From Terrabacter tumescens (lineage in GTDB: Bacteria; Actinomycetota; Actinomycetes; Actinomycetales; Dermatophilaceae): a DNA stretch of 64,000 bases. Position numbers and translations under genes: made by a program. The notes beneath the pieces were generated by a model, which saw only the letters and a list, made by a program, of their open reading frames with translations, had not been told where the DNA came from and did no database searches. The stretch covers positions 304,394 through 368,393 of the forward strand of contig NZ_BMNZ01000005.1 in NCBI RefSeq assembly GCF_014646815.1, read 5' to 3'. Positions 5,361 through 54,045 of this stretch are shown in pieces; position 1 is the first letter of the stretch; every line of letters starts with the position of its first letter.

Positions 5361-5956
5361 GGGAGCACACGGCATACGTCTTCGACCTCGACGGCGTCGT
5401 GCGGGACTTCGCTCCCGGCGACGCGAACCCGGCCATCGAGGCGGCGCTCGGGCTGCCCGCCGGGCACGTCGCGGCGACGGCGTTCCGCAGCGAGCTGCTG
5501 CTGCCGACCATCACCGGCCGGCGCAGCTTCGACGAGTGGTATGCCGCCATCTGCGCCGCGCTCGAGGACGTCGTCCCCGAGCCGGCGCGGGTGCGCGAGC
5601 ACATGACGCGCTGGCGCGAGCACCGCGGCACCGTGATCGACGAGACCGTCGAGCGTCTCGAGACGCTCCGCTCGGCCGGGCACCGCACCTACGTCTTCAC
5701 CAACGGCACCGACTACGTGCCGCAGGAGATGGAGCTGCTCGGGATCACCCGCCTCTTCGACGGCCTGCTCAACAGCGCGGACTTCGGCGTGGTCAAGCCC
5801 GACCCGCTGGCGTATGCCGCCGCCCACCGGGCGATCGAGGCCGACCTCGGGCGCGTGGTGGCCCGTGACGAGGTGTGGTTCACGGACGACCGCGACGAGA
5901 ACGTCGCGGCCGCGCGTGAGTTCGGTTGGGACGCAGAGGTCTTCAGCCGAGGGTGA
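5357..5956 (+). CDS. HAD-family hydrolase (phosphatase-like)
   Basis: A 199-residue HAD-IA-type protein. Motif I is VFDLDGVVRDF with the nucleophile and acid/base Asp pair, motif II is VFTNGTD, motif III is the Lys of VVKPDPLAYA, and motif IV is WFTDDRDEN. The alpha-helical cap lies between motifs I and II (about residues 20-85), as in epoxide-hydrolase-like and phosphoglycolate-phosphatase-like HADs. It probably dephosphorylates a small metabolite in the cytoplasm; the substrate is unknown. The start GTG 5357 overlaps the upstream stop (GTGA). Its end runs 14 bp into the convergent clpB stop region. Confidence 0.88.
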   Translation: MREHTAYVFDLDGVVRDFAPGDANPAIEAALGLPAGHVAATAFRSELLLPTITGRRSFDEWYAAICAALEDVVPEPARVREHMTRWREHRGTVIDETVERLETLRSAGHRTYVFTNGTDYVPQEMELLGITRLFDGLLNSADFGVVKPDPLAYAAAHRAIEADLGRVVARDEVWFTDDRDENVAAAREFGWDAEVFSRG

Positions 5957-8504
5957 GCGACTCCCCTGCGGCGTCGACGCCGACCTGCACGGTGGCGCCG
6001 TCGCGGACCTCGCCCGACAGCAGCCCCCGGGCCAGCCGGTCGCCGATCTCGCGCTGGACGAGCCGGCGCAGCGGGCGGGCGCCGTAGGCCGGGTCGAAGC
6101 CACGGGCCGCGAGCCACTGGCGGGCGTCGTCGGTGACCTCGAGGGTGATTCGCCGGTCGGCGAGCCGCTCGGCGAAGGCCCGCACCTGCAGGTCGACGAT
6201 GTGCGCGAGGTCGTCGCGGCTCAGGGCGTCGAAGACGACGACCTCGTCGAGCCGGTTGAGGAACTCCGGCTTGAACGACGAGCGCACGATGCCCATCACC
6301 GACTCTCGGCGCGCCTCGGGGCTCAGCAGCGGGTCGGTGAGGAACTGCGACCCGAGGTTGGAGGTGAGCACGAGGATGACGTTGCGGAAGTCGACGGTGC
6401 GACCCTGGCCGTCGGTGAGCCGCCCGTCGTCGAGCACCTGGAGCAGGATGTCGAACGTCTCGGGGTGGGCCTTCTCGACCTCGTCGAGCAGGATCACCGA
6501 GTAGGGGCGCCGACGCACGGCTTCGGTGAGCTGGCCGCCCTCCTCGTAGCCGACGTAGCCCGGGGGCGCCCCGATGAGACGCGCGACCGAGTGCCGTTCG
6601 GAGTACTCCGACATGTCGATGCGCACCATCGCGCGCTCGTCGTCGAAGAGGAAGTCGGCGAGGCTCTTGGCCAGCTCGGTCTTGCCGACACCCGTCGGGC
6701 CGAGGAAGAGGAAGCTGCCGGTGGGCCGGTCGGGGTCCGAGACGCCGGCCCGCGTGCGGCGGACGGCGTCGGAGACGGCGCGCACGGCGTCGGTCTGCCC
6801 GATGAGGCGGGCGCCGATGTGCTGCTCCATGTGCAGCAGCTTCTCGGACTCGCCCTCCATCAGCCGCCCGGCGGGGATGCCGGTCCAGGCCGAGATGACG
6901 TCGGCGATGTCGTCGGCGCCGACCTCCTCCTTGACCATCGGCTCCTCGTCGACGGACGTGGCCGCCGCCTCGCGCTCCTGGGCGGTCGCGAGCTGCTTCT
7001 CGAGGGCCGGGATGTCGCCGTAGGCGAGCTTGGACGCACCCGCGAGGTCGCCCTCGCGCTGGAGCCGGTCGGCCTGCACCCGGAGGTCGTCGATCTGCGC
7101 CTTGATGTCACCGACGGCGTTGAGGCCGGCCTTCTCGGCCTCCCAGCGGGCGTTGAGGGCGGCGAGCTCCTCGGACCGGTCGGCGAGGTCCTTGCGCAGC
7201 CGGGCGAGCCGCTCCTTGCTCGCCTCGTCGGTCTCCTGCTCGAGGGCGAACTCCTCCATCTTGAGCCGGTCGACGGCGCGACGCAGCTCGTCGATCTCGA
7301 CGGGGCTCGAGTCGATCTCCATGCGCAGGCGTGAGGCGGCCTCGTCGATGAGGTCGATGGCCTTGTCGGGCAGCTGCCGCCCGCTGATGTAGCGGTCGCT
7401 GAGGGAGGCGGCCGCGACGAGCGCGGAGTCGGCGATGGTCACCTTGTGGTGCGCCTCGTAGCGCTCCTTGAGCCCGCGCAGGATCGCGATGGTGTCCTCG
7501 ACCGACGGCTCGCCGACGAAGACCTGCTGGAAGCGGCGCTCGAGGGCGGCGTCCTTCTCGATGTGCTTGCGGTACTCGTCGAGCGTCGTGGCGCCCACGA
7601 GCCGCAGCTCGCCGCGGGCCAGCATGGGCTTGAGCATGTTGCCGGCGTCCATGGCGCCCTCGCCGCCGGCGCCCGCGCCGACGACGGTGTGGATCTCGTC
7701 GATGAAGGTGACGATCTGCCCGTCGCTGCCCTTGATCTCCTCGAGCACTGCCTTGAGCCGCTCCTCGAACTCACCGCGGTACTTCGCGCCCGCGAGCATG
7801 GCTCCGAGGTCGAGGCTGTAGAGCGTCTTGTCGCGCAGGCTCTCGGGCACGTCGCCCTCGACGATGCGCTGGGCCAGGCCCTCGACGACGGCGGTCTTGC
7901 CCACGCCGGGCTCACCGATGAGGACCGGGTTGTTCTTCGTGCGGCGGGACAGGACCTGCACGACCCGGCGGATCTCGGCGTCGCGGCCGATGACCGGGTC
8001 GAGCTTGCCCTCACGGGCGCGGGCGGTGAGGTCGGTGCCGTACTTCGCGAGCGCCTCGAAGGTGCCCTCGGGGTTGTCGGAGGTCACCGGTCGCCCGCCG
8101 CGCAGCTCGGGGATGGCCTTCTCGATCGCGTCGGCGTCGAGGCCGAACTGTCCCGTGCGCGCGATGGCGAGCAGCAGGTGGTCGGTCGAGACGTACGAGT
8201 CGCCCATGGCGGTCATGTACTGCTGCGCCTGCTGGATGACGCGCAGTCCCGTGGGCGAGAGCTGCGGCTGCTGGGTGCCGCCGGTGACCTGCGGCATCGA
8301 GGCCATGGCGCGCTCGGCCGCGGCCGTCGCGGCGGCGACGCTCGAGCCCGCTGCGGTGAGCAGAGCGGGGGTGGTCGTGCCGCTCTGCGCCGCCAGCGCG
8401 AGCAGCAGGTGCGCCGGCTCGATGTTGGGGTGGTGCTTGCCGGTGGCCGTCGTCGCGGCCTGGGCGAAGGCCTCCTGCGCCTTGGTGGTCAGAGACAGGT
8501 CCAT
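5943..8504 (-). CDS. clpB: ATP-dependent disaggregase ClpB
   Basis: Hsp100 chaperone of 853 residues. It has an N-terminal Clp_N double repeat (about 1-145), NBD1 with Walker A GEPGVGKT at 197-204 and Walker B FIDEIH, a middle coiled-coil domain rich in Glu/Arg/Leu that is diagnostic of ClpB, and NBD2 with GPTGVGKTE and [10 protein letters not shown]. It works with DnaK-DnaJ-GrpE to resolubilise aggregated proteins, and those partners are encoded 6 kb away. ATG 8504 follows a GGAG motif. A HAIR box 49 bp upstream indicates HspR repression. It overlaps the HAD gene tail-to-tail. Confidence 0.98.
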
Positions 8505-8552
8505 GCGTGCTCCTGGTAACGGGATGGGTTCACAGGCGTCAACCGGTGCTGA

Positions 8553-8573
8553 CTTGAGTGTATTCCGCTCAAC
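8553..8573. promoter_or_regulatory. HAIR box (HspR operator) upstream of clpB
   Basis: CTTGAGT-N7-GCTCAAC at 8553-8573 matches the HspR inverted repeat consensus CTTGAGT-N7-ACTCAAG in 12 of 14 positions. It lies 49 bp before clpB and about 95 bp before the divergent DivIVA-like gene. HspR is encoded in this window. On the reverse strand a possible -10 (TACACT) lies inside the box, so binding would block polymerase directly. Confidence 0.85.
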
Positions 8574-8667
8574 TTCGTGCGTCAGGAGAAGGTGACGTAT
8601 GCCGCCCGGCGCGCGCCGCCGGGCCCGTTCCCACGCTCCGTCTCCTCCTCCACCTAGTCTCGGGCGC

Positions 8668-9066
8668 ATGGACCGAACCGCTCTCGCCGACGAGCTGCGC
8701 ACCGCGCGCTTCCGCACGACCCAGTTCCGGGCCGGCTACAAGGAGGACGCGATCGACGACGTCATCGACACCATCGTCGGGCAGCTGACGGTCGGCGCGG
8801 CCGACCACGAGATCGTGCAGACGGCGCAGTCCAGCCGCTTCCCGACGACCACTGGCCGGCGCGGCTACGAGATGGCCGACGTCGACGCCCTCCTCGAGCG
8901 GGTCGTGACGAGCCTCGGCGGCGCGGCCACCCCGACGTCGCCTCGGGACGGCGCCCCGACGTCGTCGTCGACGCCTCCACAGACGACCTCGACGTCGGCC
9001 GAGCCGCTCCCCTCCGCGCTCATCGAGCCGCCCCGCGGCTTCCTGGCGCGCCTCCTCGGGCGCTGA
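8668..9066 (+). CDS. DivIVA-motif protein, small
   Basis: A 132-residue protein with two copies of the short DivIVA N-terminal signature. The first is FRAGYKEDAIDDVIDTIVGQL at about 17-37 and the second is RRGYEMADVDALLERVV at about 66-82. A Thr/Ser/Pro-rich linker and a short basic hydrophobic end (GFLARLLGR) follow. Actinobacterial DivIVA/Wag31-type proteins recruit the polar growth machinery by such membrane-binding loops, but this one lacks a long coiled coil, so it is more likely an accessory membrane-associated protein. TAGTCT (8655-8660) sits 7 nt before ATG 8668 and no Shine-Dalgarno is seen, suggesting a leaderless transcript. Confidence 0.72.
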   Translation: MDRTALADELRTARFRTTQFRAGYKEDAIDDVIDTIVGQLTVGAADHEIVQTAQSSRFPTTTGRRGYEMADVDALLERVVTSLGGAATPTSPRDGAPTSSSTPPQTTSTSAEPLPSALIEPPRGFLARLLGR

Positions 9067-9105
9067 CGGCCCCCGACCTCCTCAGGCCCCACCGGCCCCA
9101 CCGGC

Positions 9106-9384
9106 TCAGCCGTGCGGGTCGGGGTCGTACCACCCGTCGTGCACGGCGGCGAGCGCCTCGAAGCGCACGGCATACGCAGGGTCGGACGGCGTGCGCACGT
9201 AAACCGCCCACTCGTGGGCCTCGGAGTCGTCCTCACCGGCGAGCGCCTCGCGGACGACGCGGACGTCGGAGAGCCCCTCGGCCTCGAGGTCGTCGGCGAG
9301 CGACTCGGCCTCGTCCCGCTCGGGCAGCACGATGAGGTGCTCCCTGGTCGCGTTCCCGTCGTCCGCTCGTGCAGTCGTGCCCAC
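9106..9384 (-). CDS. Small acidic protein of unknown function
   Basis: A 92-residue acidic protein with no membrane segment or signal peptide and no family I can name with confidence. It has an alternating alpha/beta look: HLIVLPERDEAESLADDLEAEG, then VRVVREALAGEDD, then EWAVYVRTPSD. The fold may be ferredoxin-like, such as RraB-type or ACT-like proteins; this is a weak inference. It is the last of three same-strand genes after the two ANTAR genes and lies 18 bp after the GAF-ANTAR gene, so they may share a transcript. Confidence 0.6.
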   Translation of the reverse strand: MGTTARADDGNATREHLIVLPERDEAESLADDLEAEGLSDVRVVREALAGEDDSEAHEWAVYVRTPSDPAYAVRFEALAAVHDGWYDPDPHG

Positions 9385-9402
9385 GGCGCCAGCGTAGGAC
9401 GG

Positions 9403-10068
9403 TCAGACCACCTCGTCCGGCTCGGCACCCGTCTCGATGACGCGCCGGGCCACCTCGCGCAGCTTGACGTTGTGGTCCTGCGACGCGCGACGCAGCACCT
9501 CGAACGCCTCCTCGGACAGGATCCGGTGGCGCTCGATGAGGATGCCCATGGCCTGGCCCACGAGCCGGTGGCTCTCGACGGCACGCTCGAGGTTGGCCTC
9601 GTTCTGCCGGAAGCGGTCCACCATGACGATGCGGTCGACCGCATGGGCGAGCGAGTGCAGCAGCAGCTCCGCGACGACGCAGTCGGCGACGCCGGGCTGC
9701 GCGGTCACGGCGCCCCCCACCCACACCCGGCAGGTGGCGCGGGCGCCCGACGACTCGAGCAGGATCCCGCGCCCGTCCTGGGCGCGGGCCTCACCGGCGG
9801 CGGTCGGCGCGGAGAGGACCGAGCGCACCGAGGGCGACAGGGCCGCCGGCGGCACGACTCCGGAGGCGCTCGCGTGCAGGTCGTGCTGGGTCGCCGTCAC
9901 GCGCAGCACCGCCTCGCCGCCGAGCACGGCGCCGATCGTCGAGGCCGCCACGGCGAGGGCCTCCTCGAGGTCCTCGGAGCACACGAGCAGCCGGGCCGCC
10001 GCGGTGACGCGGGCTGCGTGCTCGACGCTGTCGTCGTTCGCAGCCGTCGCCGGTGGCAGGGCGGTCAC
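9403..10068 (-). CDS. GAF-like sensor plus ANTAR RNA-binding domain
   Basis: A 221-residue regulator with an N-terminal GAF-like domain (about 20-150) and a C-terminal ANTAR domain (about 160-215; ESHRLVGQAMGILIERHRI and KLREVARRVIE). ANTAR domains bind paired hexaloop hairpins in mRNA leaders and prevent transcription termination. The whole protein aligns by eye with the last 200 residues of the hybrid kinase encoded just upstream: both have an Asp-Leu-Glu/Asp helix, an AVLRV/GVTLRV strand, CRVWV/CRAWV and an almost identical ANTAR end. It looks like a duplicated output module. GTG 10068 is supported by AGGAGG 5 nt upstream. Confidence 0.85.
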   Translation of the reverse strand: MTALPPATAANDDSVEHAARVTAAARLLVCSEDLEEALAVAASTIGAVLGGEAVLRVTATQHDLHASASGVVPPAALSPSVRSVLSAPTAAGEARAQDGRGILLESSGARATCRVWVGGAVTAQPGVADCVVAELLLHSLAHAVDRIVMVDRFRQNEANLERAVESHRLVGQAMGILIERHRILSEEAFEVLRRASQDHNVKLREVARRVIETGAEPDEVV

Positions 10069-10213
10069 GGGGCCTCCTGGGTACGCGTGGGAAGGCCCGC
10101 GAACTTGGAGGCAGCACAGTGTTGCATCCCGCCCCACCACCGGACAAAACCAGACACGGTGCAATCTCCTGATGGGCACGTCGACGCCCGTCGCAGATGT
10201 GCCGGGACGCCGC

Positions 10214-10244
10214 GGCCCCCGGAGCCGCGAGGGCGCCGGGGGCC
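10214..10244 (-). terminator. Hairpin terminator after the hybrid kinase
   Basis: GGCCCCCGG (10214-10222) pairs perfectly with CCGGGGGCC (10236-10244) around a 13-nt loop, 19 bp beyond the kinase stop. No U tract follows. It lies in the 194-bp gap before the GAF-ANTAR gene, so it could be a simple terminator or the attenuator on which the ANTAR proteins act. The rest of the gap shows no clear paired hexaloops. Confidence 0.55.
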
Positions 10245-10262
10245 GTTGGGGTGCGGGTCGGG

Positions 10263-13200
10263 TCAGGCCCGGTCGGGGTCCTGACCGCTCTCGACGACGC
10301 GGGCCGCGATCTCGCGCAGCTTGATGTTGCGGTTGAGCGACGCCTGCCGCAGCATCTCGAAGCTCTGCTTCGCCGTGATGCGGTGGCGCTCGATGAGGAC
10401 GCCGACGGCGTGGCCGATGAGCCGGTGGCTCTCGATGGCCTGCTCGAGCTGGTGCTCCTTCTCGGCCCGCGCCTGCTGGGCGACCACCCGGTCGACGGCC
10501 TGGCCGAGCGACTGGGCGAGGAGGTCACCGACGATGAGCTCGTCACTGGAGACGTGGCGCGGCTCGTCGAACTGCACCCAGGCCCGGCAGTCGGACTCGT
10601 GCGCCGAGGGCAGGAGCAGCAGTCCCTCGCGCTTGTCACCGAGGAGCACCTCGTGGCCGTACGGCGAGGACATCAGCCCCTCGCGCACGCCGTCCTCGAG
10701 CTCCGAGACGTCGACCCGTCCGCGCGGGGAGAGCACGACCGGCTTGCCCTTGGTCGGGGCCACCCGCAGCGTCACCCCGCCGTCGAAGAGCACGGTGAAG
10801 CCGGTGACGGCGGTCGCCAGCACCTGGTCGAGGTCGTCGGCCGTCGCGAGGTCGGCGGCGATGCGCGCGGCGAGCTCGCGCCGCATGCGCGACTCCCGCT
10901 CACGGGTCTCGTCGCGCAGCACGACGATGGTGAAGCCGTCGTACTCGGCCGTGCCGGGCACGCTCGCGGCCCGGACGTGGACCCACGCCTCGCCGCCGCC
11001 GCGCCGCAGGATGCGGTAGCGGTCGTCCTCGACCGGCCGGCCCGCCTGCAGCAGCTCCATGCGTCGCTCGTGCTGGCGCCGCTCGTCGGGCGACTCCGAC
11101 TCGGGGATCCACCACGGGTAGGGCGGCACGAGCGGGCCGTCGGCGAGCGACCACCCGAACGTGCGGGTGAAGACGTCGTTGACCTCCACCACGAGACCGT
11201 CGACGTCGGTGACGACGAACGGCTCCTGGATGGCGCCGAGGATGGCCCGCAGCCACGCCGCGTCGCGGGACCGTGACCGGGACCGGACGAGGTTGGCGGC
11301 GAGTCGGGCCCGCAGCTCCTCGGGCTGGAACGGCTTGACGACGTAGTCGTCCGCGCCCTGGAGCAGCCCGGTGGTGCTCGCCTCGACACCGGCCCGTGCC
11401 GACAGCAGCACCACCGGCAGGTCCCGCAGCGCAGGGTCGGCCCGGATCTCTCGCACGAGCGTCAGCCCGTCCATGCGGGGCATCATGACGTCCGCGAGGA
11501 CGATCGCCGGACGACGCAGGCGCAGGTGCTCGAGGGCCTCGACCCCGTCGCGCACCGAGACGACGTCGTAGTCGACGACGCAGTGCCGTGCGATGTAGTC
11601 GCGCATGTCGTGGTTGTCCTCGACGACGAGCAGCGTCGGCCGGGCTCCCTCGAGCGGCGACGAGCTCGGCGCGCTCGTCCCGGCAGCGGCGCGGGAGGTC
11701 GCGCCGGCCGCCACGCTCGCATCCATGCCGGCCGCGACGTCGTCGCGGATCACCCAGCTGCTGGCCTCGTCGATGAACGACTCGGCCGACCGCACCGTGA
11801 TCGAGGGGCGCAGCGCCGCGCGCGACGCCGGCTCGCCCCACGGGAACGACACCGTGAAGGTGCTGCCTCGGCCGTGGACCGACTCGACCCAGACGCGCCC
11901 GCCCATGAGCTCGACGAGCTGGCGCACGAGAGACAGGCCGATGCCGGCCCCCTCGCGCGAGCGGCGGTCCTCGCCGCGGTCGAGCTGCCGGAACCGGTCG
12001 AAGACGAGGTCGAGGTCCTTCTCGAGGATGCCGATGCCGGTGTCGCTGACCGCCACGGCGAAGCCCTCGTCGCTGCCGGTCAGCCGCAGCGTGATGCCGC
12101 CCCGCGGGGTGAACTTCAGCGCGTTGGAGAGCAGGTTGAGCACGACCCGCTCGAACATGTCGACGTCGACGAACGCCTCGTGGTCGAGCTCGTCGCAGCG
12201 CACCTCGAAGGTCAGGCCGGTGCGCTCGATGGCCGGCCGGAAGTTCGCGGCGATGCCGGTCGTGAGCTCCTCGACGTCGGCCGACACCCAGTGCGGCTCG
12301 ACGGCTCCAGCCTCGACCCTGGTCAGGTCGAGGATGCGGTCCACGAGGGCGGTGAGCCGGTCGGTGTTGCGGCGGATCAGCTCGAAGCGCTGGCGCTGCT
12401 CGGGCTCGAGCCCGTCGGCCGCCAGGGCGTCCTGGACGGGTCCCGCGATGAGTGTGAGCGGCGTGCGCAGCTCGTGGCTGACGTTGGCGAAGAAGTCGGA
12501 CTTGGCGGCGTCGAGCTCGGCCAGGGCCTCGGCGCGGTGCCGCTCGTCCTGGAGGCTGCGGATGCCCCTGAGCGCGCTCGCCACGTGGGCGGCGCACAGC
12601 TCGGCGTACGTCTGGAGCTGCGCGTCCCACGGCCGCTGGGGGTTCTCGGTCAGCAGCAGGTGCGCCGTGGGGTCGGCGAGGCCGGGCTCGACGACCGGGA
12701 CGACGTGCACGCGTCGTCCTTCGTCGTCGACGGCCGGGGTGTCGGCACCGGGCGGACCCCAGCGCAGGTCGGTCGTGACGTGGTCGTGCCGGTGCGCGCG
12801 CAGGACGTCGAGGGCGCGGACGCGTACGTCCTCGGGAGTCCCGGCGCCGGCGAGCGCGGAAGCCAGGCTCGAGGAGACCTCGGTGCGACGCTCGGCGAGA
12901 ACCTTCACCGTCGTCTCGGTGGCCACGTTGAGGATGCCGACGACAGCGCCGGACTCGTCGTGGATCGCGCCGTAGGACCACGTGAAGTAGGCCTCCTCGA
13001 GGAAGCCCGCACGGTCGACGACGAGCAGCTCGTCCTCGACCCACGTCGCCGCGCCACCGCCCGTGACCTCGGCGAACATCGGTCCGATGACGTCCCAGAC
13101 CTCGGGCCAGACGTCACGCACGGGCCGTGCCCACGCACCGGGGTGCTTGCTCTCGCCGAGCAGGGTGCGGTAGCCGTCGTTGTAGACCATGACGAGGTCG

Positions 13201-13418
13201 GGTCCCCAGCACACGAGGATGGGGAAGCGGGACGACAGGCTGACGTCGACCATGACGCGCAGCGTGTCAGGCCACGACTCGAGCGGGCCGAGCGGCGTCG
13301 TTGCCCAGTCGGTGCTCTCGAAGAGGCTCGCCATCTCGCCCTGGTGCGCGGCCCCGTCGGCAGGGAGGTGCGCCGACGATGAAACCGGGAGGTCGCCCTC
13401 CGGATGGTGCGGGGTCAC
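10263..13418 (-). CDS. Hybrid histidine kinase with receiver and C-terminal ANTAR domain
   Basis: A 1051-residue cytoplasmic protein without membrane segments. Domains in order: PAS-like (about 30-170), GAF-like (180-285), HisKA with phospho-acceptor His315 in FFANVSHELRTP, HATPase with N432 in the N-box, DTGIG (459-463) and GAGIGLSL (490-497), a linker, a receiver (595-710) with Asp643 in LADVMMPRMDG and Lys695, a second PAS (720-840), a GAF-like domain (850-980) and ANTAR (990-1045). Known systems such as EutW/EutV split kinase and REC-ANTAR between two proteins; here sensing, phosphorelay and RNA antitermination sit on one chain. GTG 13418 has GGAGG 4 nt upstream. Signal and RNA target are unknown. 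Confidence 0.9.
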   Translation of the reverse strand: MTPHHPEGDLPVSSSAHLPADGAAHQGEMASLFESTDWATTPLGPLESWPDTLRVMVDVSLSSRFPILVCWGPDLVMVYNDGYRTLLGESKHPGAWARPVRDVWPEVWDVIGPMFAEVTGGGAATWVEDELLVVDRAGFLEEAYFTWSYGAIHDESGAVVGILNVATETTVKVLAERRTEVSSSLASALAGAGTPEDVRVRALDVLRAHRHDHVTTDLRWGPPGADTPAVDDEGRRVHVVPVVEPGLADPTAHLLLTENPQRPWDAQLQTYAELCAAHVASALRGIRSLQDERHRAEALAELDAAKSDFFANVSHELRTPLTLIAGPVQDALAADGLEPEQRQRFELIRRNTDRLTALVDRILDLTRVEAGAVEPHWVSADVEELTTGIAANFRPAIERTGLTFEVRCDELDHEAFVDVDMFERVVLNLLSNALKFTPRGGITLRLTGSDEGFAVAVSDTGIGILEKDLDLVFDRFRQLDRGEDRRSREGAGIGLSLVRQLVELMGGRVWVESVHGRGSTFTVSFPWGEPASRAALRPSITVRSAESFIDEASSWVIRDDVAAGMDASVAAGATSRAAAGTSAPSSSPLEGARPTLLVVEDNHDMRDYIARHCVVDYDVVSVRDGVEALEHLRLRRPAIVLADVMMPRMDGLTLVREIRADPALRDLPVVLLSARAGVEASTTGLLQGADDYVVKPFQPEELRARLAANLVRSRSRSRDAAWLRAILGAIQEPFVVTDVDGLVVEVNDVFTRTFGWSLADGPLVPPYPWWIPESESPDERRQHERRMELLQAGRPVEDDRYRILRRGGGEAWVHVRAASVPGTAEYDGFTIVVLRDETRERESRMRRELAARIAADLATADDLDQVLATAVTGFTVLFDGGVTLRVAPTKGKPVVLSPRGRVDVSELEDGVREGLMSSPYGHEVLLGDKREGLLLLPSAHESDCRAWVQFDEPRHVSSDELIVGDLLAQSLGQAVDRVVAQQARAEKEHQLEQAIESHRLIGHAVGVLIERHRITAKQSFEMLRQASLNRNIKLREIAARVVESGQDPDRA

Positions 13419-13633
13419 ACGACCTCCGGGAGTGGGATCAAGATGCAGCCTCCGGCGGCTTCACACGGGCGCGCCCCATCTGCTTGAGGCCGCTGCACAG
13501 TCTGTCACATGAGCGCGGCCCGGCGGCCCGCTACGCGGAGGACCACACCGCGCGACGTCGGGGGCGATCCCTCCCAGGGCTTGCGGCAGGGCCTGCGGCA
13601 CCACTTGCGGCGGGGCTCGGGCCCCGCCTCAGC

Positions 13634-14101
13634 TCACGCCTGTCGTCCGCGGTCGGGTCGCCAGACGACGAGGGCCTGCGAGGAGGGCGACCGCGGCGGT
13701 CGCTGGCCGGGGCGGACGGCCACGACCTCGCCTCGCGGCCCGACGGCGAAGACGCGGGCGCCCGACGACAGCGCGACCTGCGCGGCCGCCAGCTCGGAGC
13801 TCAGCTCCTCGACGCGAGAGCGGAGGGCTGCGACGTGGTTCTCGAGGTCGAGGATGCGCTGGATGCCGGCCAGCGACACCCCCTCCTGCGACAGTCGCTG
13901 CACCTCGCGGAGCAGCTCGACGTCGCGCGTGCTGTAGCGGCGCCCACCGCCGCGCGTGCGCGACGGGGAGACGAGCCCGAGGCGGTCGTACTGGCGCAAC
14001 GTCTGGGCGTGCATGCCGGCGAGCTCGGCCGCGACGGAGATGACGAAGACCGGGGCGTCGTCGTCGTGCCCGCCGGTGCGGGCGCTCTTGCGGGCCATCA
14101 T
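13634..14101 (-). CDS. hspR: Heat-shock repressor HspR (MerR family)
   Basis: A MerR-type regulator of 155 residues and the last gene of the dnaK operon. The winged helix-turn-helix is clear: FVISVAAELAGMHAQTLRQYDRLGLVSPSRTRGGGRRYSTRDVELL at about 18-63, followed by a dimerisation helix (VSLAGIQRILDLENHVAALRSRV). HspR binds HAIR inverted repeats with DnaK as co-repressor, closing a feedback loop; HAIR boxes precede both clpB and dnaK here. ATG 14101 is chosen because AGGAGG lies 5 nt upstream; a GTG at 14107 is in frame but overlaps that Shine-Dalgarno sequence. Confidence 0.95.
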   Translation of the reverse strand: MMARKSARTGGHDDDAPVFVISVAAELAGMHAQTLRQYDRLGLVSPSRTRGGGRRYSTRDVELLREVQRLSQEGVSLAGIQRILDLENHVAALRSRVEELSSELAAAQVALSSGARVFAVGPRGEVVAVRPGQRPPRSPSSQALVVWRPDRGRQA

Positions 14102-14136
14102 CGCCACCTCCTCTCGTCGGGCTCTCGTCAGGCGCG

Positions 14137-15147
14137 TCAGGCTCGGGCGCGCTGGAACAGGTCGGCGCGCGGGTCGTGGCCGTCCTCAGCCGCGGCCATC
14201 TTCTCGACGGCCTCGCGCGCCTCGTCGGTCAGCCGCTGCGGGACCACGACCTGCACCTTGGCGAGGAGGTCGCCGACGTGGTCGCCTCGCTTGACCCCAC
14301 GGCCCTTGAGCCGCAGCACGCGGCCGCTCGGCGTGCCGGGAGCGACCTTGACCTTGACCGAGCCGCCGTCGAGCGTGGGCACGGCGACGGTCGCGCCGAG
14401 AGCGGCCTCGGCGAAGGTGACCGGGAGGTCGAGCGTGAGGTTGTCGCCGTCGCGCCCGAAGACCGGGTGCTTGTCGACCGAGACCGTGAGGATCAGGTCA
14501 CCGGCCGGGGCGCCGGGGTCGCCCTGACGGCCCTTGCCGCGCAGACGGATCCGCTGACCGTCCTTGACGCCCGCCGGGATGCGGGCGTTGATGCGCCCGA
14601 GGTCGGGCGAGCTGAGCGAGACCGTGGAGCCCTGCACGGCGTCGCGGAAGGCGATGTGGGTGCTCGCCTGGACGTCGGCGCCCGGGCGGGGGCCGGGCGT
14701 CGCGCCGTATCCGCCGTAGCCGGCGCCGGGTGCGCCGCCGCCGAACATCTGGCCGAGGATGTCCTCGAGGTTGGGCTGGCCCCCGGCACCACCGGTGTTG
14801 AACCGGACGCGCTGGCCACCGGGGCCACCCGCGCCACCGAAGGCCGAGAAGATGTCCTCGAAGCCGGCACCCTGACCTCCGGCGCCACCCGCGGTGAAGC
14901 GGGCACCGCCGTGGGACATGGCACGGATCGCGTCGTACTCGCGGCGCTTCTCGGGGTCGGACAGGACGGCGTACGCCTCCCCGACCTCCTTGAAGCGCTC
15001 CTCGGCCTTGGCGTCCCCGACGTTGTGGTCGGGGTGCATCGTGCGCGCGACCTTGCGGTAGGTCTTCTTGATCGTCGCGGCGTCGGCGTCCTGGGGCACG
15101 CCGAGGATCGCGTAGAAGTCCTTCTCGAACCAGTCCTGACTAGCCAT
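14137..15147 (-). CDS. dnaJ: Chaperone DnaJ, type without zinc fingers
   Basis: Hsp40 co-chaperone of 336 residues that stimulates DnaK ATPase. The J domain (about 9-73) contains HPD at 38-40. A Gly/Phe-rich segment (80-150) follows, then the two beta-barrel substrate-binding domains (DVQASTHIAFRDAVQGS and LTLDLPVTFAEAALGATV). The four CxxCxGxG zinc repeats of canonical DnaJ are absent and the protein contains no Cys, so it is a class B (CbpA-like) J protein although it sits in the dnaK operon. ATG 15147 follows GGAGGAGG. Confidence 0.94.
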   Translation of the reverse strand: MASQDWFEKDFYAILGVPQDADAATIKKTYRKVARTMHPDHNVGDAKAEERFKEVGEAYAVLSDPEKRREYDAIRAMSHGGARFTAGGAGGQGAGFEDIFSAFGGAGGPGGQRVRFNTGGAGGQPNLEDILGQMFGGGAPGAGYGGYGATPGPRPGADVQASTHIAFRDAVQGSTVSLSSPDLGRINARIPAGVKDGQRIRLRGKGRQGDPGAPAGDLILTVSVDKHPVFGRDGDNLTLDLPVTFAEAALGATVAVPTLDGGSVKVKVAPGTPSGRVLRLKGRGVKRGDHVGDLLAKVQVVVPQRLTDEAREAVEKMAAAEDGHDPRADLFQRARA

Positions 15148-15236
15148 GGCGCACCTCCTCCTTCGCGGTGACTCTCACGCTGCTCCCATCATCGGGTATG
15201 CCGCCGGGCTGCGGGTGCAGCCCGGCGGCGGACGTC

Positions 15237-15922
15237 TCAGGCGGGGTCGGCAACCGACACCCGCGCGGCCCGGACGAGCCGGTCACCGATGCGGTAGCCC
15301 GGCTGCAGCACCTGCACGACGGTGGTGCCCGTCGCGCCCTCGGGAAGCTCGGCCTCGACGTGCATGAGGGCCTCGTGCACGTTGGGGTCGAACTCCTGCC
15401 CAGCCTCGCCCAGGCGCTCGACGCCGTAGCGACCGAGGGTGGACTCGAGCTTGTCGGCGATGGCCGCGAACGGGCCACCGGCAAGGTCGCCGGCCTGGCG
15501 CGCCATGTGGATGTCGTCGAGCACCGGCAGCAGCGACTCGACGACGCTGCCCACCGCGGTGTGCCGGATGACCTCGCGGTCGCGGTCGACGCGCTTCTTG
15601 TAGTTGACGTACTCGGCCTGCAGTCGCTGCAGGTCCGCGAGCAGCGTCGCGGCCATGGTGTCCTCCTCGGCGAGGGCGACGCCCTCCTCCGGATCGGAGG
15701 ACGGAGCGGAGTCGCCTGCGGGGTGGTCGAACTCGTCCTCGCCACCGGGCTCGGACGAAGCGCCCGGGCCGCCCTCGTAGTACGTGTGGTGGCGCTCCCC
15801 GTGCTGGGACTCGCCGGAGCCGCCCTGGGGCGGGGTGCCGGCGGCGTCGCCGCCGGCACCCGTCGCGCCCGTGCCGGTCACATCGGCCTGCTCGCCGGAC
15901 GTGCCCTGGTTCGGGGACTCGG

Positions 15923-15926
<4 letters not shown>
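15237..15926 (-). CDS. grpE: Nucleotide exchange factor GrpE
   Basis: A 229-residue co-chaperone that releases ADP from DnaK. It has a long disordered acidic N-terminus rich in Gly, Thr, Glu and Ser (1-85). The dimerising helix ([24 protein letters not shown]) follows, then the conserved GrpE core ([12 protein letters not shown] and the [13 protein letters not shown] loop) and the end beta domain ([27 protein letters not shown]). Its GTG start overlaps the dnaK stop by 4 bp (GTGA), so the two are translationally coupled. Confidence 0.97.
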
Positions 15927-17836
<1,910 letters not shown>

Positions 17837-17901
17837 GGGTGACTCCTTGTGAGCTAGGTGGAGATCGTGATGCTGATGGTCTGGTGAACAGGTCCTCGCT
17901 C

Positions 17902-17968
17902 AATCTGCTCCGGCCCGGCCATGATTGTCAAAACCGGACTCGCAAATCTTGCGTTCACTCGACTCAAC
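17902..17968 (-). promoter_or_regulatory. dnaK promoter with HAIR box
   Basis: The HAIR-like repeat CTTGCGT-N7-ACTCAAC is at 17948-17968 and differs from the consensus CTTGAGT-N7-ACTCAAG at two positions. Reading toward dnaK, TTGACA lies at 17931-17926 as a -35 element and CAGATT at 17907-17902 as a -10 with an 18-nt spacer. HspR bound at the box would sit just upstream of the -35. The leader to the ATG is about 60 nt. Confidence 0.75.
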
Positions 17969-18060
17969 TCTGGGGTCGCCCCGATTGTTCCCGGCGATGG
18001 ACCGGGGTCATCCCGGAGGGCGCACAGGCTCGCTCGCTACCGTCGGTGACGGAGGTCCCC

Positions 18061-19323
18061 ATGCCCGAGCGCACCGGCCGGGTCGCCCTCGCCGCGACCG
18101 TGGCCCTCGCCCTGTCCGCCGCCGCCTGCTCGTCGGGCGCCCCGTCATCCGGCACCAGCACCTCGCCCGCGAGTGGCCCGGCCACGACGTCTACGTCGAC
18201 CACACCGGCGCAGACACCGTCGACCACACCGGCGACGACGGCCCCGACCCCACCTGCCTCGACGACGACGCGCACCGCCACTCCGTCGAGTCCGGCACCG
18301 ACCTCGGTCGCCGGCCGCCCCACGGGCAACGCGACGGTGGTGCGCACGCTCGCGACCGGCATCGACGTGCCATGGGGCCTCGCGCGCCTGCCGGACGGCA
18401 GGGTGCTCGTCTCGGCCCGCGACAGCTACCGGATCGACCGGCTCGACGTGGCCGCGGGCCGGCTCACCCGGGTCGGCACCGTGCCCGGCGTCGTGTCCAA
18501 CGTGTCCCAGCAGGGCGAGGCAGGCCTGCTCGGCATCGCGGTCTCGCCGACGTTCACGCGCGACCGCCTCGTCTACGCGTACTTCTCGACGGCGTCGGAC
18601 AACCGGATCGCCGCGATCCCCTGGGACCCTTCGGCGCCGGCCGGGCGGCAGCTCGGCACGCCACGCGTGCTCGTGCGCGGCATCCCTCACAACGTGCACC
18701 ACAACGGCGGCCGCCTCGCGTTCGGCCCGGACGGCTACCTCTATGCCACGACGGGCGAGGCGCAGCGGCCCGCACTGGCCCAGGACAAGGGCTCGCTCGG
18801 CGGCAAGATCCTGCGGATGACGACCTCCGGCCGGCCGGCCCCGGGCAGCCCGTTCGGCACGCTCGTCTGGTCCTACGGCCACCGCAACGTCCAGGGCATC
18901 GCCTGGGACGCGGCCGGGCGCCTCTGGGCCTCGGAGTTCGGCGACCACAGCGCGGACGAGCTCAACCTGATCCGCCCCGGCCGCAACTACGGGTGGCCGC
19001 AGACCGAGGGACGCACGAGCCGCGCGGGCATCACCGGGCCGGTCGTCCAGTGGGGCCCGCCGCAGGACTCCCCCAGCGGCATCGCCATCGCCGGGGGCTC
19101 GGTGTGGATGGCGGCGCTGCGCGGGCAGCGGCTGTGGCGGATCCCGCTCGACGGCGCCCGCACGACCGCAGCGCCGCAGGACTTCCTCGTCGGCCGCTAC
19201 GGCCGGCTGCGCAGCGTGCTCGCCGTCGACGACCGGACCATCCTCGTCACGACGAGCAACCGCGACGGGCGACAGGCCCCAGGCGCCGGCGACGACCGGA
19301 TCCTGCTCGTCCGCGTCACCTGA
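18061..19323 (+). CDS. PQQ-dependent sugar dehydrogenase, lipoprotein
   Basis: Secreted lipoprotein of 420 residues. It has a signal peptide with lipobox SAAAC (Cys23), a Thr/Pro/Ser-rich linker (about 25-85) and a six-bladed beta-propeller of the glucose/sorbosone dehydrogenase family. Typical motifs are IDVPWGLARLPDGR, GEAGLLGIAVSP, HHNGGRLAFGPDGYLYATTGE, SYGHRNVQGIAWD and LWASEFGDHSADELN. Family members oxidise aldose sugars with PQQ and Ca2+ outside the membrane; substrate is inferred only at this level. ATG 18061 has GGAGG 8 nt upstream. The stop is 4 bp from the stop of the convergent phosphatase. Confidence 0.9.
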   Translation: MPERTGRVALAATVALALSAAACSSGAPSSGTSTSPASGPATTSTSTTPAQTPSTTPATTAPTPPASTTTRTATPSSPAPTSVAGRPTGNATVVRTLATGIDVPWGLARLPDGRVLVSARDSYRIDRLDVAAGRLTRVGTVPGVVSNVSQQGEAGLLGIAVSPTFTRDRLVYAYFSTASDNRIAAIPWDPSAPAGRQLGTPRVLVRGIPHNVHHNGGRLAFGPDGYLYATTGEAQRPALAQDKGSLGGKILRMTTSGRPAPGSPFGTLVWSYGHRNVQGIAWDAAGRLWASEFGDHSADELNLIRPGRNYGWPQTEGRTSRAGITGPVVQWGPPQDSPSGIAIAGGSVWMAALRGQRLWRIPLDGARTTAAPQDFLVGRYGRLRSVLAVDDRTILVTTSNRDGRQAPGAGDDRILLVRVT

Positions 19324-44921: not shown

Positions 44922-44994
44922 CGGTGACTCCCTCGGACTCGTCGACGGGCCGGCACGCGCCCGCCCATCGCAACGGTCGCGCGGGACCGTCGAT

Positions 44995-45062
44995 GAACAG
45001 GAACCATCAGCCGGTCGGCGGTTCGGACGTCGCAGGACGTCCGGGCGGGATCCATCGCCACG
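44995..45062 (-). ncRNA. Fluoride riboswitch (crcB motif)
   Basis: Read toward the operon, the leader has GGCGATGGATCCCGCC, then a P2 hairpin (GGACGTCC-TGC-GACGTCC), AACCGCC, and GGCTGATGGTTCCTG. These are the invariant blocks of the crcB motif: the GGCGAUG...CCCGCC helix and loop, and the GGCUGAUGG...CCUAC-like 3' end with pseudoknot partners. The operon encodes two CrcB channels, the class's usual output. ACGGTC/GACCGT (44985-44990 with 44973-44978) after the aptamer is a likely expression-platform hairpin. Confidence 0.92.
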
Positions 45063-45065
45063 CAC

Positions 45066-45071
45066 ACTCTA
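45066..45071 (-). promoter_or_regulatory. -10 element of the fluoride operon
   Basis: TAGAGT (reverse strand, 45071-45066) lies 6-7 nt before the first paired base of the fluoride aptamer, so the transcript would begin almost exactly at the riboswitch. No convincing -35 is seen at 17-18 nt (CGTCTC). Confidence 0.6.
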
Positions 45072-53746: not shown

Positions 53747-53859
53747 GGTGTGTCTCCCGGGTTCCAGTGGATACGCGTGGATACGAGTGTATACCGGGGG
53801 AAGCCAGCCGGACGGACACGTCGATGACGTGTGCCGTGCGGTGGCCTGAGAAATACCGA

Positions 53860-53951
53860 CTTCCTTCGCCGGTGCTAACCGGAGCAGGTTCGAGGGTCTG
53901 CGGCTCGGCCCTTCGGGCTGCCGCACTCTCAGCGCGTGACGCGCTCCCCTG
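53860..53951 (-). ncRNA. TPP riboswitch (THI element)
   Basis: Reading toward ykoE, the leader has CAGGGGAGCG at the 5' end (53951-53942), then GCTGAGAGTGCGG, a helix with a GCCCGAAGGGC hairpin, CCGCAGACCCTCGAACCTG, the variable stem CCGG...CCGG and GGCGAAGGAAG (53870-53860). GCUGAGA, ACCCUCGAACCUG and the 3' GAAGG are the conserved TPP aptamer parts. Closing P1 pairs are formed by the ends. Downstream 53747-53859 holds the expression platform. Control of a thiamin-precursor transporter fits. Confidence 0.93.
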
Positions 53952-54045
53952 TCGTGATGGGTGGGTGGTGCTCTTCAGTTGTCGGGGGTGACTCTACTCG
54001 TCCGGCGCGCGTCCGACGCCCGGGTCTCGTGGGTACAGTCACGAC

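Follow-up and report, generated by a model that had tools for sequence, protein, structure and literature searches.

Known ANTAR domains form the output end either of a separate response regulator or of a ligand sensor. Their three commonest architectures are built on receivers, pseudo-receivers and one-component sensors (PMC7496416). In EutV and PdtaR (Rv1626), the ANTAR domain directly follows a receiver that is phosphorylated by a separate kinase and controls the ANTAR, whereas in the one-component GAF-ANTAR and PAS-ANTAR regulators, including PAL (6hmj), a sensor is joined to the ANTAR without a kinase or a receiver. ShkA (6qrj) is a hybrid kinase with HisKA, HATPase and REC on one chain and is not known to have an output domain of the RNA-binding type. 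Actinobacterial hybrids that end in SpoIIE (PF07228) deliver their output through a PP2C-type phosphatase and an accompanying ATPase domain. In the present study, we analyzed a 64,000-nucleotide (nt) stretch of DNA (the window; assembly GCF_014646815.1, contig NZ_BMNZ01000005.1, positions 304,394-368,393 of the forward strand) from Terrabacter tumescens, a soil actinobacterium, and found in it the gene of a hybrid histidine kinase that ends in an ANTAR domain. The protein has kinase and receiver on one chain like ShkA, a sensor joined to the ANTAR like the one-component regulators, and the chassis and domain order of the SpoIIE-ended hybrids up to the second GAF. 

The kinase gene was found to be intact, with a GGAGG ribosome-binding site 4 nt before the GTG start and a GC content of 75/47/95% at codon positions 1/2/3. 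The domain order was PAS-GAF-HisKA(H315)-HATPase-REC(D643)-PAS-GAF-ANTAR (Table 1). Pfam did not detect the first PAS or either GAF in the query; in the relatives L032 and L163 (L and G numbers are our handles for loci and genomes), PAS_4 was the best stretch close to the N-terminus, and GAF_2 lay ahead of HisKA in all six Pfam-scanned SpoIIE-ended relatives. The catalytic residues were present, namely H315, the N-box, the G1 and G2 boxes, E600, D601, D643, S673 and K695. In an alignment of 11 sequences including the query, H315, D601, D643 and K695 were invariant, and E600 and S673 were nearly so. No transmembrane segment was suggested by hydropathy, the highest 19-residue Kyte-Doolittle mean being 1.57. 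A HisKA domain with its histidine, a HATPase_c domain and a REC domain with its aspartate on one chain make the protein a hybrid histidine kinase. The first-pass annotation of the window had placed this order on one soluble protein of 1051 residues, with intact key residues in kinase and receiver and a PAS-GAF pair between receiver and ANTAR, and on all of these points our results from Pfam, relatives, AlphaFold and hydropathy agreed with it. Its term "phosphorelay" has to be narrowed to a single predicted His-to-Asp step, as Pfam detected neither an HPt domain nor a second REC in this chain at E<=0.01.

The same architecture was found in 15 homologues, which gives 16 distinct ANTAR-ended kinases: that of the window, nine named ones, and those of G039, G021, G015, G050, G007 and G141. 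The identity to the query was 43-83% for 14 homologues and 38% for that of G141 (L035), and 14 of the 15 aligned over 96-100% of the query. HisKA, HATPase_c, REC and ANTAR were all detected in each of the six homologues scanned with Pfam. The genes of G007 and G141 were uninterrupted (1037 and 1030 residues, ANTAR included), the flagged stop being the terminal one. This recurrence indicated that the architecture is neither a chance product nor an assembly join. A mis-joined neighboring gene, which the earlier annotation had named as a possible refutation, was rejected, since the single frame with its ANTAR ending is kept across the homologues.

The architecture is real and rare. A scan of genome contigs yielded 13 loci with nine full-length homologues, in Terrabacter, Terracoccus, Intrasporangium and other Intrasporangiaceae/Dermatophilaceae. 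In the family sample, seven of 59 genomes (own included) matched at E<=1e-100; one locus from this search, L030, was identical to L022 over the treed part. A REC-PAS-GAF-ANTAR profile matched 50 of 394 genomes of the class at E<=1e-45; in just two of these, the own genome and G141, did the match extend through the ANTAR end within a kinase-sized frame. It also matched seven of 297 genomes of the order, two of them (own and G015) through the ANTAR end in such a frame, and seven of 296 genomes of the phylum at E<=1e-60, one of them (own) in this way. These samples overlap, and the profile searches scored four to five candidates per genome, so the lack of a match elsewhere is not proof of absence. 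Pfam found HisKA in none of eight long-frame ANTAR proteins of other genomes, which carry GAF, PAS or REC, and two more were negative by motif search (10 regions in total). Among plasmids, 46 records matched at E<=1e-80, none of them covering 80% of the query. No description of a kinase-ANTAR fusion, which the first reading had likewise named as a possible refutation, was found in the literature searched, a search whose coverage leaves out most subscription journals. One of the 17 ANTAR architectures that Ramesh et al. (2012; PMC3369931) show in their Fig. 1 may be a kinase fusion.

The next-nearest relatives align with the query as far as the second GAF or thereabouts, after which SpoIIE and HATPase_c_2 follow (six of six scanned with Pfam); SpoIIE (PF07228) had no Pfam match in the query. 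In an alignment of 34 chassis relatives including the query, HisKA, HATPase_c and REC were present in all, and the output end was SpoIIE in 32, ANTAR in one (the query) and neither in one. The SpoIIE-ended relatives showed 29-36% identity to the query segment (34-36% in 32 of 33 rows), and the plasmid matches from Streptomyces sp. M54 and Rhodococcus ruber are annotated "SpoIIE family protein phosphatase". We left out the output domain and built a chassis tree, rooted at the midpoint, in which several ANTAR-ended rows formed long branches. All 17 ANTAR-ended rows (16 distinct) lay on one side of one branch (support 100/99), and a single change of output sufficed in 100% of the bootstrap trees. 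The simplest reading is that the output end was exchanged once; the tree fits a single origin and does not prove it, and because of the midpoint root, the direction of the exchange is not shown. The SpoIIE-ended and ANTAR-ended relatives on the same chassis amount to a natural domain-swap experiment, a contrast that asks how a phosphorylated receiver drives either a phosphatase or an ANTAR.

The explanation that we favor, with a probability of roughly 0.55, is that the protein forms a two-component system on a single cytosolic chain and acts on RNA through an ANTAR dimer. A signal at the first PAS/GAF would set the autophosphorylation of H315, and the phosphoryl group would pass to D643, either within that chain or within the dimer. 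Once phosphorylated, the receiver would work together with the second PAS-GAF, which may be a second input or a mere transmission rod, to alter the pairing of the long helix extending from GAF2 into the three-helix bundle of the ANTAR. Targets of the ANTAR dimer would be nascent transcripts or mRNAs of a small set of genes, perhaps linked to stress, and the adjoining paralogous GAF-ANTAR protein would probably share or compete for the target. The chassis would be that of a PAS-GAF-HisKA-HATPase-REC-PAS-GAF-SpoIIE hybrid with its output end exchanged. Gating by two signals, as the domain order suggests, is plausible. By analogy with EutV and PdtaR, the phosphorylated receiver may control the ANTAR, although here the kinase is on the chain and a PAS-GAF pair lies in between. 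The best sequence matches to solved ANTAR proteins were EutV (6wsh, E 8e-5) and Rv1626 (1s8n, E 0.003). The AlphaFold model of the C-terminal 207 residues (mean predicted local distance difference test score, pLDDT, 88.9; predicted template modeling score, pTM, 0.71) contained a continuous GAF2-ANTAR helix and an ANTAR part of three helices, and the best Foldseek match of the full-length model was ShkA 6qrj. As sensing, kinase, receiver and ANTAR lie on one soluble polypeptide, the complete route from the signal to the output could be reconstituted in a single tube.

Several results weigh against this explanation. The full-length AlphaFold model (mean pLDDT 74) had a pTM of 0.33, which is low, so the arrangement of the domains is not predicted. 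With the C-terminal model, Foldseek gave weak matches to GAF structures, EutV (6wsh/6ww6) and PAL (6hmj), only one of them at E<=0.001; PAL was at 0.009 and EutV at 0.024-0.028. The kinase gene lies outside the chaperone cluster, among unrelated genes, in four divergent relatives of the 15 (G015, G050, G007 and G141), and a scan of the cluster found no HspR operator ahead of either ANTAR gene; the link to stress is therefore positional only. No target RNA emerged from the hexaloop scans of the window and the locus, and canonical loop-reading residues are absent, so RNA binding is unproven.

These residues are defined in EutV, where R142, K149 and E160 coordinate the flipped loop guanine G4 and Y164 stacks on it (PMC8934654). 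R142 and K149 correspond to R340 and K347 of NasR, in which R340 is essential, the R340A mutation eliminating RNA binding, and K347 is important; Phe is usual at the Y164 position in ANTARs outside the NIT proteins (PMC7496416). We transferred the contact positions to the kinase by gapless alignment. In the query, R142 was replaced by His, K149 by Val, E160 by Ala, Y164 by Phe, M172 by Leu, R175 by Asn and R177 by Lys, while R168 and N173 were kept. The R142 position was His in 14 of the 16 kinases and Gln in two, the K149 position Val in 15 and Ile in one, and the E160 position was never Glu; all 16 had Phe at Y164, Arg or Lys at R168, Asn at R175 and Lys at R177. Judged from these alignments, the ANTAR lacks the guanine-coordinating residues of the hexaloop-reading EutV/NasR kind and would keep an aromatic residue to stack on G4. 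Only the PdtaR-like domain among the 13 ANTAR domains of the own genome carried both Arg and Lys, and the kinase is thus one of the non-canonical ANTARs that are common there. Among 105 distinct actinobacterial ANTAR rows from 14 genomes (gaps counted in), Arg occupied the first position in 78 and Lys the second in 50. The kinase also points to those actinobacterial ANTARs that lack the residues for the known RNA motif; in 55 of the 105 rows, Arg and Lys do not occur together. We know of no targets of ANTARs without this Arg and Lys.

According to predictions, about 74.5% of the actinobacteria sequenced carry dual-hexaloop ANTAR RNAs (PMC8164766). We scanned the window and the loci of nine relatives for such paired hexaloops, with shuffles that preserve base content only. 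No strict A1/G4 dual hexaloop was found at 5.9-19 kb (0-2 in 40 shuffles), nor at 4-19 kb, and the 64-kb window held four (1-5 in 20 shuffles). Relaxed searches gave two matches with one stem cut to three pairs (shuffles 0-7) and nine with one loop position freed (shuffles 4-21). The nine relatives' loci held four strict matches, none at a common place. These counts, which lie within the shuffle range, gave no sign of a canonical dual hexaloop near the locus, and Rfam reported nothing at the kinase locus at gathering score in a scan of the window. A standard antiterminator, acting on A1/G4 dual hexaloops before terminators or start codons, would be in keeping with an ANTAR above the Pfam cut-off and with the wide prediction of such RNAs in actinobacteria. 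We regard it as improbable, given that the guanine-coordinating residues are replaced, one of them at the very position of R340A, and that strict hexaloops in the 64-kb window, and relaxed ones as well, stay at shuffle level. The earlier label "RNA-binding antiterminator" is unproven, and the residues replaced in 16 of 16 kinases and the hexaloop counts partly contradict it. The RNA recognized is probably other than the standard dual hexaloop.

It may instead be that the ANTAR no longer binds RNA and serves as a dimerization or protein-docking end, for example in pairing with the neighboring GAF-ANTAR protein. The missing Arg, Lys and Glu, which are absent from the window's GAF-ANTAR neighbor too, the lack of a hexaloop excess near the locus, and the adjoining paralogue in eight of 11 syntenic relatives speak for such a loss. 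We consider it rather unlikely, because the contact positions of Y164, R168 and R177 are kept as Phe, Arg/Lys and Lys in all 16 kinases, and 55 of the 105 actinobacterial rows lack the Lys and 27 the Arg. With Arg and Lys so often missing in actinobacterial ANTARs, their replacement may mark another specificity and not a loss.

Table 1. Coordinates of the features in the window
Feature	Position	Strand	Remark
ANTAR-ended hybrid histidine kinase gene	10263-13418	-	intact open reading frame, 1051 residues, GTG start
N-terminal PAS-like sensor, about residues 51-170	12909-13268	-	AlphaFold model; PAS_4 in L032 and L163
GAF-like domain 1, about residues 171-290	12549-12908	-	AlphaFold model; GAF_2 in SpoIIE-ended relatives
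HisKA, residues 305-371	12306-12506	-	Pfam, over cut-off; predicted phospho-acceptor H315 at 12474-12476
HATPase_c, residues 418-526	11841-12167	-	Pfam, over cut-off
Receiver (Response_reg), residues 597-706	11301-11630	-	Pfam, over cut-off; D643 at 11490-11492
Second PAS, residues 723-841	10896-11252	-	Pfam PAS 723-819, PAS_4 729-841
GAF-like domain 2, about residues 863-975	10494-10832	-	AlphaFold models; last helix continues into ANTAR helix 1
ANTAR, residues 990-1042	10293-10451	-	Pfam PF03861, 57.9 bits (cut-off 27.3)
Kinase gene leader	13416-13513	-	conserved; shared core 13483-13501
GAF-ANTAR gene	9403-10068	-	221 residues; paralogue of the kinase C-terminal end
GAF-ANTAR gene leader	10066-10129	-	64 nt; core 10104-10120; ends with start codon
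Small open reading frame between the ANTAR genes and clpB	9106-9384	-	weak RraB similarity, below cut-off
clpB	5943-8504	-	named by sequence recognition
HspR operator before clpB	8554-8572	-	exact consensus match
hspR	13634-14107	-	MerR-type regulator; named by position after dnaJ
dnaK-grpE-dnaJ	14137-17836	-	named by sequence recognition, without a Pfam scan
HspR operator-like site before dnaK	17949-17967	-	one mismatch

The kinase gene lies between hspR and clpB in the window and in 11 relatives (L014-L022, L028 and L029); dnaK was seen in the nine longer of these loci, and the sequence of the two short ones starts in dnaJ. A GAF-ANTAR gene stands next to the kinase gene in the window and in eight of the 11. 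In L022, L028 and L029, the small open reading frame directly follows the kinase gene with no GAF-ANTAR gene between; it is kept in 10 of the 11 relatives and was not found in L017. Among 30 of 57 hspR matches examined as loci, the family members L174 and L177, which have no kinase match, carry a relative of the small open reading frame directly after hspR, that of L177 being partly aligned. In G015, G050 and G007, the kinase gene is far from hspR or on a different contig. We also observed that the ANTAR kinase genes of G015 (L161) and G050 (L162) adjoin a hemerythrin-domain gene, a possible hint of a redox or oxygen signal. HspR recognizes the operator consensus TTGAGYN7ACTCAA (PMC2687793). 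Apart from the two sites in Table 1, the only HspR-like site in the cluster lies inside the kinase gene (12136-12154, two mismatches). The minus strand showed no terminator-like site at 8500-18600, so read-through, for example from dnaK, is possible.

The genes called at about 5.9-17.8 kb were those of the chaperones, hspR, the GAF-ANTAR gene, the small open reading frame and a DivIVA-like open reading frame, and neither a gene for a separate response regulator nor one for an HPt protein was recognized among them. This bears on a further alternative, in which the kinase acts mainly in trans, its receiver serving some other regulator as a phosphate sink or a relay intermediate, and the ANTAR being secondary. 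Many hybrid kinases do hand the phosphoryl group to separate HPt proteins (PMC12471899), but no such partner was recognized beside this kinase, and in every homologue examined the receiver and its output are parts of one polypeptide; we regard action in trans as very improbable.

The GAF-ANTAR protein was the second match of the own genome to the REC-PAS-GAF-ANTAR profile and is the closest paralogue of the kinase there. In a tree, it fell into one clade with the GAF-ANTAR ends of the kinases (99/95), a grouping that the bootstrap does not fully settle, and the branching order inside the clade was left open. The gene is a paralogue that arose by partial duplication or partial fusion.

The leaders of both ANTAR genes are conserved, with a mean column identity of 89% for the GAF-ANTAR leader and 84% for the kinase leader (nine sequences each). 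They share a core of about CAnACTGTGC-n-GCCTC(C)AAG. A model of the GAF-ANTAR leader found only its own copy in the own genome (E 2e-17, next 2.2) among the 150 of 542 candidates scored, and a genome-wide regulon marked by this leader was rejected accordingly. The model did not detect the kinase leaders, which confines the resemblance between the two leaders to the short core. The core minus its last letters occurred three times in the genome against five for a reversed control, which makes the count alone meaningless. A longer core pattern occurred twice in the window (0.01 expected), having been designed from those two copies. In the distant kinase leader L029, the core matched at 22 of 27 positions (0 of 1000 shuffles). 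Weaker matches were seen in L028 (17 of 26, p 0.004) and L022 (p about 0.025), with p uncorrected for 27 comparisons, and the core was not detected in the kinase leaders L161-L164.

A hairpin sequestering the Shine-Dalgarno sequence of the GAF-ANTAR leader was rejected: 94% of the cells could pair, yet column shuffles did equally well, and there were no two-sided pair changes, because the sequence hardly varies. Folding energies were unremarkable, with z values of -1.3 and -1.1 for two GAF-ANTAR leaders and +1.3, +0.8 and +1.0 for three kinase leaders. The GCCTCC of the core could pair with the ribosome-binding site, and no covariation was seen. In one conceivable reading, which we hold to be a long shot, the non-canonical ANTAR would read a non-hexaloop RNA in the leaders of both ANTAR genes. 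The GCCTC(C) start of a conserved 5' element there could pair with a Shine-Dalgarno-like GGAGGC, and the kinase, gated by phosphorylation, would in this way govern how the two genes of its own module within the heat-shock cluster are translated. Read against the extended -10 promoter consensus, the core fits as well or better as an extended -10 promoter followed by the first transcribed bases, and for this reason we make no RNA claim for it. Elsewhere in the window, Rfam placed two riboswitches over its cut-off, both on the minus strand: a thiamine pyrophosphate (TPP) riboswitch at 53844-53960 and a fluoride riboswitch at 44991-45068.

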